Part shown: piece after piece, positions 10,537 to 15,534 of the stretch
Layout: each line of letters starts with the position of its first letter
Position numbering within the stretch: position 1 is the first letter of the stretch
NCBI GenBank assembly: GCA_007859745.1
Contig: SMLU01000001.1
Span: forward strand, 2,604,001 to 2,668,000
Direction: 5' to 3'
Source: Phycisphaerae bacterium RAS1
Lineage (GTDB): Bacteria > Planctomycetota > Phycisphaerae > UBA1845 > Fen-1342
DNA length: 64,000 nt
Notes under the pieces: generated by a model
What the model saw: the letters and a program-made list of their open reading frames with translations, nothing else
Database searches by the model: none
Told to the model about the DNA's origin: nothing
Translations under genes and position numbers: made by a program

Positions 10537-11287
10537 GGCGGGTGGCACTGCCGAAACGCTTCCGGGAGTGAGTAACGTCGCGTGTGCCACTGCTCTGCGA
10601 GCAGTGTCTTGGGCGGCGGGCGACGGGTTCGGTATCATGGCGACGTGGAGAGCGGGATACGCAAGACGCGCAAGGCCTGGAACGAGCCGGGCCACGCGCA
10701 TTTTCTCACGTACTCGTGCTACCGCCGGCTGCCCCTGCTGACGCGCGACCGAACGCGGCGGTGGGTGATCGACGCAATGGAGAGGGCCCGGCGAGAGCAC
10801 GACGCGGCGCTCTGGGCTTACGTCATCATGCCGGAGCACGTGCATCTCCTGCTGTGCCCGAATCGGCCGCGATACGAAATGCGGCGAATTCTGGCGGCGT
10901 TGAAGCGGCCGGTCGCCACGGCGGCCAAAGCCTATCGTCTGGAGCGCGGTGAAACGGCGTGGCTGGACCGGCTGACGGTGCGCTACCCGACGCGGGAGGT
11001 GTTCCGCTTCTGGCAGCCGGGCGGCGGGTTCGACCACAACATTTTCCGGGAGAAGACCGTCGCGGCGGTGGTAGAATACATCCACGCAAACCCGGTCCGG
11101 CGAGGGTTGGTCACGCACCCCGCGGATTGGGAGTGGTCGAGCGCTCGGTTCTGGGAAGGAAGTCGGGATGTTCCGCTGGCGATGGACCACCCCGAGGGCT
11201 GAAGGCCTGGCCGACGGCCCAAGACACTGCTCGCAGAGCAGTGGCACACGTGGCGGTTGCTTGGAGAATGAACAGTGCCACCCCGCC
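10537..11287 (+). mobile_element. rayT element, copy 1
   Basis: An element of about 751 bp bounded by the inverted repeats GGCGGGTGGCACTG (left) and CAGTGCCACCCCGCC (right). Just inside both ends lies the palindrome CACTGCTC-TGC-GAGCAGTG in opposite orientations. A single rayT gene fills the interior. The left 40 bp differ from copies 2-4, so it represents a distinct variant end. Confidence 0.75.
10645..11202 (+). CDS. rayT: REP-associated tyrosine transposase, copy 1
   Basis: A 185-residue Y1/HUH transposase of the TnpA-REP type. The HUH motif is EHVHLLL, preceded by AYVIMP; the catalytic Tyr is in AVVEYIHANPVRRGL, followed by WEWSSARFW, all family signatures. HUH enzymes nick single-stranded DNA at hairpins through a Tyr-DNA bond, and RayT proteins act on REP palindromes. 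I chose the GTG at 10645; the frame is open upstream but encodes only the element's palindrome. The protein is identical to copies 2 and 3. RayT genes are usually single and domesticated, whereas this one sits in a multicopy element. Confidence 0.88.
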   Translation: MESGIRKTRKAWNEPGHAHFLTYSCYRRLPLLTRDRTRRWVIDAMERARREHDAALWAYVIMPEHVHLLLCPNRPRYEMRRILAALKRPVATAAKAYRLERGETAWLDRLTVRYPTREVFRFWQPGGGFDHNIFREKTVAAVVEYIHANPVRRGLVTHPADWEWSSARFWEGSRDVPLAMDHPEG

Positions 11288-11310
11288 CCAAAGACCATTT
11301 GGTGCCGCAC

Positions 11311-11727
11311 ATGCCGGTAAACACCTGCGCGAAAGCCAGGGCACGAACGCTCGCGGTGATGATCTCGCTATCGCTCGCTGCCTGTGACAAAGGTGATCGG
11401 GAACCCCGGTTGGCAGCTTCGTCTCCCACAACCGCGCCCAGCAACGCGCCATACGCCCCTCTGACGCTGCGCGAGCTATCGGTTGACTTTATCAGCGCGA
11501 TTGGCGATGTTCGCCGTCGCGATCTCTGTATTCGCGCTATGGACGTGGGAGTGCTGACGACTGGCCTTCCCAAACGAGACCTCCAGCTACTCTTCGGCGA
11601 TGAACTTCATGAGTTGGTGGATGAGGCTGAAGCTAGCGACGGTGTTGCGTGCAGCGCCGTTACGTTTCGTCATTCCGCCTCATCCGGTGAGGTTCACGGC
11701 CAGGTGTCAGCCGCAGGCTCTACGTGA
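11311..11727 (+). CDS. lipoprotein, first half of split tandem-domain protein, copy 1
   Basis: A 138-residue product. Residues 1-26 are a lipoprotein signal (VMISLSLAACDKG). The rest is one copy of a domain around RRDLCIRAMDVGVLTTGLPK, followed by LLFGDELHELVDE. The next reading frame contains a second copy of the same domain. The last residues here (QVSAAGST) are probably out of frame: one base over, the DNA reads RRLYVIHRNQLVSYFEL, which matches the end of domain 2 (LRLVVKHDRGIIYDYHL). So this and the next frame are probably one protein broken by a frameshift. The G....V...FG pattern is loosely BamE/SmpA-like. Base composition is less GC-rich than its neighbours. Confidence 0.55.
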   Translation: MPVNTCAKARARTLAVMISLSLAACDKGDREPRLAASSPTTAPSNAPYAPLTLRELSVDFISAIGDVRRRDLCIRAMDVGVLTTGLPKRDLQLLFGDELHELVDEAEASDGVACSAVTFRHSASSGEVHGQVSAAGST

Positions 11728-13727: not shown

Positions 13728-14443
13728 GTCACGGTTCGTGTGCCACTGCTCTGCGAGCAGTGTCTTGGGCGGCGGGCGACGGGTTCGGTATCATGGCGAC
13801 GTGGAGAGCGGGATACGCAAGACGCGCAAGGCCTGGAACGAGCCGGGCCACGCGCATTTTCTCACGTACTCGTGCTACCGCCGGCTGCCCCTGCTGACGC
13901 GCGACCGAACGCGGCGGTGGGTGATCGACGCAATGGAGAGGGCCCGGCGAGAGCACGACGCGGCGCTCTGGGCTTACGTCATCATGCCGGAGCACGTGCA
14001 TCTCCTGCTGTGCCCGAATCGGCCGCGATACGAAATGCGGCGAATTCTGGCGGCGTTGAAGCGGCCGGTCGCCACGGCGGCCAAAGCCTATCGTCTGGAG
14101 CGCGGTGAAACGGCGTGGCTGGACCGGCTGACGGTGCGCTACCCGACGCGGGAGGTGTTCCGCTTCTGGCAGCCGGGCGGCGGGTTCGACCACAACATTT
14201 TCCGGGAGAAGACCGTCGCGGCGGTGGTAGAATACATCCACGCAAACCCGGTCCGGCGAGGGTTGGTCACGCACCCCGCGGATTGGGAGTGGTCGAGCGC
14301 TCGGTTCTGGGAAGGAAGTCGGGATGTTCCGCTGGCGATGGACCACCCCGAGGGCTGAAGGCCTGGCCGACGGCCCAAGACACTGCTCGCAGAGCAGTGG
14401 CACACGTGGCGGTTGCTTGGAGAATGAACAGTGCCACCCCGCC
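13692..14443 (+). mobile_element. rayT element, copy 3
   Basis: A 752-bp element identical in layout to copy 2 with the same 15-bp terminal inverted repeats. Its right boundary at 14443 is sharp: beyond CAGTGCCACCCCGCC the sequence changes to an AT-richer unrelated stretch instead of a third cargo copy. That break supports the assigned element end. Confidence 0.82.
13801..14358 (+). CDS. rayT: REP-associated tyrosine transposase, copy 3
   Basis: 185 residues, identical to copies 1 and 2, with HUH (EHVHLLL) and catalytic Tyr (VVEYIHANPV) intact. GTG start. Nothing disrupts the frame, so all three direct copies could make the same protein. Confidence 0.88.
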   Translation: MESGIRKTRKAWNEPGHAHFLTYSCYRRLPLLTRDRTRRWVIDAMERARREHDAALWAYVIMPEHVHLLLCPNRPRYEMRRILAALKRPVATAAKAYRLERGETAWLDRLTVRYPTREVFRFWQPGGGFDHNIFREKTVAAVVEYIHANPVRRGLVTHPADWEWSSARFWEGSRDVPLAMDHPEG

Positions 14444-14782
14444 GTTTGTATTTGCCAAGATGGGACAATGGGCCAGAGATCCCAACAAACCGCCCAAGAA
14501 GCGAGGCGATCCATGGGGTGAGCCAACGCCTGCTGACGACGGGTCGGTTCCAGGGACCAGCATCGAACGCCCGAAGACTCCGGAGCACGTTGTCTTTTAC
14601 AACTACGTTACTGTTATTACCAACGACGATGGTATTACCCCGGTCACTAAACATTGGACATTTCTACCCTGCGGCGTAGCGCACGGGTTCGGCTTGGAAG
14701 TAATTCCTGATGATGTTGGGTCGGCGTTGCGTGTCGCGGAGGTAGCCTTGGAGATTGGCGATCAACTCGGGTTTGGTGGCGG
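14444..14782. other. gene remnant between two rayT elements
   Basis: This stretch lies between copies 3 and 4 of the rayT element and has lower GC. Two partial frames look protein-like. On the minus strand, the 3' part encodes PELIANLQGYLRDTQRR, then PNIIRNYFQAEPVRYAAG and a stop at about 14674, entering from the element. On the plus strand, KMGQWARDPNKPPKKRGDPW runs into HVVFYNYVTVITNDDG. Neither has a start or matches a family I recognise. It is probably the tail of a host gene cut by element insertion. Confidence 0.4.
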
Positions 14783-15534
14783 GGCGGGGTGGCACTGTTC
14801 GCTCTCCAAGTGTTCTCCACGTGTGCCACTGCTCTGCGAGCAGTGTCTTGGGCCGTCGGCCAGGCCTTCAGCCCTCGGGGTGGTCCATCGCCAGCGGAAC
14901 ATCCCGACTTCCGTCCCAGAACCGCGCGCTCGACCATTCCCAATCCGCGGGGTGCGCCACCAACTGTCGCCGGACCGGGTTCGCGTGGATGTATTCTACC
15001 ACCGCCGCGGCGGTCTTTTCCTGGAAAATGTTGTGGTCGAACCCGCCGCCCGGCTGCCAGAAGCGGAACACCTCCCGCGTCGGGTAGCGCACCGTCAGCC
15101 GGTCCAGCCACGCCGTTTCGCCGCGCTCCAGCAGAAAGGCTTTGGCCGCCGTGGCGACCGGCCGCTTCAACGCCGCCAGAATTCGCCGCATTTCGTATCG
15201 CGGCCGATTCGGGCACAGCAGGAGATGCACGTGCTCCGGCATGATGACGTAAGCCCAGAGCGCCGCATCGTGCTCCCGCCGGGCCCTCTCCATTGCGTCG
15301 ATCACCCATCGCCGCGTTCGGTCCCGCGTCAGCAGCGGCAGCCGCCGGTAGCACGAGTACGTGAGAAAATGCGCGTGGCCCGGCTCGTTCCAGGCCTTGC
15401 GCGTCTTGCGTATCCCGCTTTCCACGCCGCTATGATACCGAACCCGTCGCCGGCCGCCCAAGACACTGCTCGCAGAGCAGTGGCACACGAACCGTGACTC
15501 ATTTCCGACGATGCTCCGACAGTGCCACCCCGCC
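14783..15534 (-). mobile_element. rayT element, copy 4 (inverted, diverged)
   Basis: A 752-bp element in the opposite orientation, with the same 15-bp terminal inverted repeats and subterminal palindromes as copies 2 and 3. The interior is diverged from the direct copies, so it is an independent insertion and not part of the tandem array. Its left end lies inside a truncated IS5-type transposase gene, which it interrupts after TVHRWF. Confidence 0.82.
14868..15425 (-). CDS. rayT: REP-associated tyrosine transposase, copy 4
   Basis: A 185-residue protein of the same length as copies 1-3 with scattered substitutions (for example KAFLLERG for KAYRLERG, NIFQEKTAAA for NIFREKTVAA, VRRQLVAH for VRRGLVTH). 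The HUH motif EHVHLLL and the Tyr in AVVEYIHANPV are kept, so divergence happened with the active site preserved. The GTG start at 15425 corresponds to the start chosen for the other copies. Confidence 0.87.
   Translation of the reverse strand: MESGIRKTRKAWNEPGHAHFLTYSCYRRLPLLTRDRTRRWVIDAMERARREHDAALWAYVIMPEHVHLLLCPNRPRYEMRRILAALKRPVATAAKAFLLERGETAWLDRLTVRYPTREVFRFWQPGGGFDHNIFQEKTAAAVVEYIHANPVRRQLVAHPADWEWSSARFWDGSRDVPLAMDHPEG

Follow-up and report, generated by a model that had tools for sequence, protein, structure and literature searches.

We propose that the 752-bp unit carrying rayT in this genome is probably a REPtron-based transposable element that moves autonomously and was active recently, with a RAYT gene between inverted REP-type ends. 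We read it as mobile because its ends are sharp and identical, it occupies several sites, two identical copies have different flanks, short forms of it exist, and its protein is a RAYT by family and by fold. Among domesticated prokaryotic transposases, RAYTs are the standard example. The earlier note on this DNA had also described them as usually single and domesticated, in agreement with published work, where the RAYTs of known REPtrons are single-copy and not self-mobile (PMC2817692, PMC3116915, PMC6006769, PMC8266576) and where one study reports 'no evidence of tnpAREP mobility' (PMC8266576).

The rayT units of the window and their ends

The window (the whole 64,000-nucleotide stretch of DNA that was analysed) contains four rayT units with hairpins inside their ends, and REP remnants before the first of them:

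10409-10535, plus strand: remnants of REPs preceding copy 1, made up of a tandem pair of 42-bp REP units (10409-10493) and a hairpin-less remnant of an end
10536-11287, plus strand: rayT element copy 1, 752 bp, left end variant (16 substitutions, all within the first 45 bp)
12114-12865, plus strand: rayT element copy 2, 752 bp, same sequence as copy 3, inside a tandem repeat
13692-14443, plus strand: rayT element copy 3, 752 bp, both ends intact
14783-15534, minus strand: rayT element copy 4, 752 bp, same sequence as C1:1833397-1834148
13744-13762, plus strand: REP hairpin at the left end of copy 3, at a distance of 46 bp from the end motif GTGGCAC (in the other window copies at 10588, 12166 and 15464)
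14381-14399, plus strand: REP hairpin at the right end of copy 3, at a distance of 38 bp from the end motif GTGGCAC when read inward (in the other window copies at 11225, 12803 and 14827)

Each unit has one transposase gene and inverted GGCGGGGTGGCAC(TG) ends. The sequence GGCGGGGTGGCACTG is found without change at seven of the eight ends, while the left end of copy 1 reads GGGCGGGTGGCACTG; copy 1 differs from copy 3 at 16 positions, all in the first 45 bp. The earlier note had described four elements with inverted ends and a variant left end in copy 1, and both are seen here, although copy 1 is 752 bp long like the others and not about 751 bp. Copy 4 has 95.7% identity with copy 3 and lies directly against a truncated IS5-type gene; the note had mentioned a diverged copy and one that truncates an IS5 gene. 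Just before copy 1 (window 10311-10535), tRNA-Pro(GGG) is followed by the 42-bp REP tandem pair and the end remnant.

A perfect CACTGCTC-N3-GAGCAGTG palindrome lies inside each end of all four copies, as had been claimed. It is found 11 times in the window, compared with 0.49 expected from shuffling, and 34 times genome-wide, compared with 0 for a reversed control pattern. The 15-bp end, with up to three mismatches allowed, is in modest excess (13 versus 5.45 by chance); exact matches stand out. In every full copy the hairpins lie at both ends, flanking the gene in inverted orientation, which is a REPtron feature. The hairpin head is, however, GTGTGC and not the GT[AG]G of REPtrons, GTGG being confined to the outer motif. 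The proposal that the ends of the element are its own REP palindromes is too simple, as the terminal GGCGGGGTGGCAC motif is separate from the palindrome, and in all full copies GTGGCAC starts 46 bp (left type) or 38 bp (right type) outside the hairpin.

With defined terminal inverted repeats, GGCGGGGTGGCAC, the element could be filed as a TIRYT/TIRtron, where the terminal inverted repeats are not made of REPs, rather than as a REPtron; such elements with repeat families have been described (PMC3733652). This is a matter of filing only, not of mobility, and we regard it as possible but doubtful, given the REP-type hairpin with a constant head inside each end and the presence of the same hairpin type around the rayT genes of relatives and elsewhere in the genome. 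The published TIR motif GGGGWSAS, common to some but not all published examples (PMC3733652), also has no exact match to GGGGTGGCAC.

Copies across the genome and the evidence for mobility

A search of the genome (5.5 Mb, 7 contigs) revealed seven full rayT copies, all 752 bp, with 88-100% pairwise identity. Those outside the window are:

C1:1833397-1834148: full copy, 752 bp
C2:31615-32366: full copy, 752 bp
C4:379819-380570: full copy, 752 bp

Copy 4 and the copy at C1:1833397 show 0 differences over 752 bp, while lying 785 kb apart in unrelated flanks. On one side the flanks differ from the first base beyond GGCGGGG onward; on the other they have a single base in common before diverging. 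This divergence fixes the ends of the element to within one base, and the identical pair is, from sequence comparison, the strongest evidence for what would be a recent transposition. The 13-bp GGCGGGGTGGCAC occurs 21 times in the genome, in 20 cases at the ends of rayT elements or their truncated forms, indicating that the end sequence is not a free-standing repeat; the genome-wide search for the ends that had been proposed thus finds them almost confined to rayT elements, not occurring independently of rayT everywhere. As is general for insertion sequences, the element recurs with identical, precise ends in unrelated surroundings, and the REPtron feature of a single copy that is not mobile as a unit is absent here (seven copies, two of them identical at distant sites). 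The earlier claim that rayT sits on a true mobile element is therefore supported by the identical pair, the seven copies and the 20 of 21 ends. Copies 1-3, however, include a tandem duplication that the note had missed, and are not three separate insertions.

Short, perfect inverted repeats at the termini are reminiscent of DDE elements, and the genome carries other IS types. The unit might accordingly be a substrate of some other transposase acting in trans, such as a DDE enzyme, that reads the 13-15 bp inverted repeats, with rayT as a passenger. We consider this very unlikely, because no target-site duplications were seen at the full copies, no other plausible gene lies within the 752 bp, the hairpins go with rayT association across the phylum, and the end motifs are on rayT-derived units in 20 of 21 cases. 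A conserved target sequence was sought and none was found; a G or C lies just outside GGCGGGG at every full-length end read, which is too little to call a target because the DNA is G+C-rich.

The first three copies lie in and beside a tandem repeat:

11288-12865, plus strand: first unit of the 1578-bp tandem repeat, hypothetical gene and rayT, hairpins at 1578-bp spacing
12866-14443, plus strand: second unit of the 1578-bp tandem repeat, from the sequence

Tandem repetition of rayT and the hypothetical gene sets copies 1, 2 and 3 exactly 1578 bp apart. Copy 2 combines the left end of copy 3 with the right flank of copy 1, a mosaic that would be the expected product of unequal crossing-over between copies 1 and 3. 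Recombination best explains copies 1-3, which amount to two insertions, not three, and which probably multiplied by unequal homologous recombination after insertion. In the window, copies 1, 3 and 4 would then each stand for an insertion, three in all, with copy 2 as a recombinant, and the seven full copies would represent six insertions. Independent insertions are few. The hypothetical gene is lipoprotein-like, has an internal repeat and is found at window 11275-12149 and 12853-13727; it appears to carry a frameshift and to be interrupted by copy 3. A search of 60 relatives gave no homologue of the interrupted gene, and this route yielded no clean empty site.

The 1578-bp tandem repeat with its recombinant middle copy, together with the mismatched flanks at several sites, would also suit a scenario in which rayT is as immobile as in other REPtrons and its copies arose mostly through gene conversion, segmental duplication or homologous recombination. 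This is unlikely, however, as identity ends at the same place on both sides despite unrelated flanks, including in the identical pair 785 kb apart, and as short derivatives with the same ends are present at other sites. Transposition of the 752-bp unit remains the reading that we prefer.

Shortened rayT forms, which keep one or both ends and are without most of the rayT gene, are located at:

C1:1392792-1393065: shortened form
C4:102210-102728: shortened form
C4:8053-8379: shortened form
C1:3358388: shortened form
C2:655095: shortened form
Window 28020-29251, minus strand: non-autonomous short derivative, interrupted by another IS inside its hairpin

The last three, at different sites, have a common internal junction (element positions about 114 and 639), as would be expected of a non-autonomous element moved in trans. 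Among the derivatives the left-type distance from motif to hairpin varies slightly (43-48), and solo ends of the rayT element are also present in the genome. The interrupting IS (window 28174-29170) lies in the hairpin of the derivative and has a 9-bp repeat, CTCACAGAG, on both sides; some ISs target REPs, and this one resembles them.

We read insertion sites against in-genome homologues of unoccupied targets. In three sites with such homologues, target DNA is missing at the junction. At C1:1833397 the element is in an RHS gene, and about 750 bp of the paralogues (729-757 bp) is missing there. At C2:31615 a group II intron is without its first part up to the element, roughly 530 nt by our own reading of the intron 5' end. 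Copy 4 sits between two truncated elements, whose family names come from our reading of their sequences:

14633-14780, plus strand: IS630-type remnant, left of copy 4
15535-15783, minus strand: IS5-type remnant, right of copy 4

The missing target DNA would fit a deletion made on insertion, a later deletion next to the element, or recombination between copies that lie close together. It is also conceivable, though improbable, that RAYT insertion replaces target DNA, for example through single-strand integration into a replication gap; the basis for this reading is the loss of about 750 bp in RHS against a 752-bp element, the intron loss, and the joining of two truncated ISs by copy 4. We know of no HUH-Y1 transposase with a target-replacement mode, and the length match (750 versus 752 bp) may be a coincidence because the lost length is measurable at one site only. 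One-ended transposition at the RHS site, suggested by a first alignment, was rejected, the alignment being explained by a divergent RHS tail. The RHS-repeat genes are several, some of them in tandem (C1:1824000-1838000 and window 16436-18628); they contain dockerin-like stretches, and their tails differ. The group II intron has two copies (one at C2:408000-414000) with 99.9% identity over 1462 bp, one of which is cut by a rayT element.

The RAYT protein, its relatives and a proposed mechanism

The gene was delimited in copy 3, with its GTG start placed at the point where conservation begins:

13801-14358, plus strand: likely RAYT coding sequence of copy 3, with EHVH as its HUH motif and the catalytic Tyr within YIHANP

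The protein scores 101.4 bits against NCBIfam NF047646 (REP-associated tyrosine transposase, REP_Tyr_transpos; cut-off 80), and 22.9 bits against the IS200/IS605 transposase model, below the cut-off of 55. The HUH motif and the one catalytic tyrosine, in a YxxNP signature, are both present; within EHVH and YIHANP, H58, H60 and Y138 are invariant across 30 aligned proteins. The predicted structure (pLDDT 91.6) has as its best PDB match 4ER8, a RAYT (TnpAREP) in complex with a REP hairpin; the ISDra2 and IS608 transposases come next. By the NCBIfam model and the predicted fold, the window protein is a genuine RAYT. Among the copies dN/dS is about 0.2. At C4:379819 Asn replaces the catalytic Tyr, and this copy is probably dead, judging by its sequence. 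The genome has a second, single RAYT gene (C1:1550375-1550902) with 54% protein identity, beside which lies a different REP-like palindrome, GGGTGGCATGGGTCACGG...

The best matches for the window rayT gene are in Phycisphaerae and Phycisphaerales metagenome genomes. Of 29 related rayT genes, 23 have the same 8-bp hairpin, inverted, on both sides, compared with 0.0 in dinucleotide shuffles. The stems differ between genomes but stay paired (CACTGCTC/GAGCAGTG, CACTGCCG/CGGCAGTG, CACGGCTC/GAGCCGTG and others), a pairing that is partly by construction, because perfect stems were sought, and for which the shuffles and the two-side match serve as controls. In more distant relatives GGGTGG directly precedes the hairpin.

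A second genome of the same order, DeMMO2_2, has its own set of copies; three of them and a fragment have 84-92% DNA identity, and three have the left terminus CCGGGGTGCCACTG in common. In the tree the seven copies described here cluster together with moderate support (87/79), and four from DeMMO2_2 also form a group; the separate clusters suggest that rayT expanded probably at least twice. Of 397 genomes sampled in the class, those with rayT matches mostly have one to three, a number in which fragmented assemblies may hide identical copies. At two DeMMO2_2 loci (L076 and L079) the ends of the rayT element carry several REP units in series, and at L076 copies of the end of a TPR gene are on both flanks.

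We suggest that the RAYT, an HUH enzyme with a single tyrosine, would most likely recognise the folded GTGTGC-CACTGCTC-N3-GAGCAGTG hairpin of each end on single-stranded DNA, the inverted arrangement making the two ends alike on opposite strands. It may cut at or beside the outer GGCGGGGTGGCAC motif; TnpAREP, which cuts beside REPs in vitro (PMC8266576), is the model for this proposed cut. The 752-bp unit would then move by a single-strand route without target-site duplication, and the RAYT may also mobilise the internally deleted copies. As single-stranded DNA, whole ends were predicted to fold no better than shuffled sequences (z 0.2 to -1.1), and only the palindrome was significant. Guide-type pairing of the outer GTGGCAC with an inner GTGCCAC at each end was rejected as a general mechanism: it is present here, but the DeMMO2_2 copies have GTGCCAC at both places.

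Comparison with known systems

The spread of REP/REPIN partners is a puzzle because no RAYT has been seen to move itself (PMC8266576). A natural REPtron in several copies, whose ends are exact and which includes a recent identical pair, one copy that is probably dead and some short forms, offers defined substrates for tests of RAYT excision and insertion. The element may also suggest how a mobile ancestor of the domesticated RAYTs could have looked.

The REPtron/TnpAREP of E. coli and other Proteobacteria (PMC8266576, PMC2817692, PMC3116915) shares with it the NF047646 family, the HUH/Tyr motifs, the 4ER8 fold and REP hairpins that flank the gene in inverted orientation, but the element described here has seven full copies and an extra terminal repeat outside the hairpins. 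RAYT-type genes between terminal inverted repeats, with repeat families elsewhere in the genome, are already known as TIRYTs/TIRtrons (PMC3733652) and are alike in both respects; the present element differs in keeping REP hairpins inside the terminal repeats, in its end sequence and in multiplying as a whole unit. A multicopy RAYT subclass without REPs, subclass 2.3, is also known (PMC6006769). REPINs/BIMEs (PMC3116915) are short units of two inverted REPs without a transposase gene and in this resemble the short forms, which are, however, few and traceable as internal deletions of the full element by their common ends and junction. IS200/IS605 elements (IS608, ISDra2) have, as here, an HUH-Y1 transposase, subterminal hairpins, no visible target duplication and multiple copies. 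They lack terminal inverted repeats (PMC2817692), whereas the present element has them, its two ends are alike on opposite strands, and its protein falls under the IS200 cut-off. With the 2017 RAYT survey (Bertels et al.) lying outside this comparison, a REPtron that is multicopy and has exact ends, deletion derivatives and a recent identical pair appears to be a new form within a known type.
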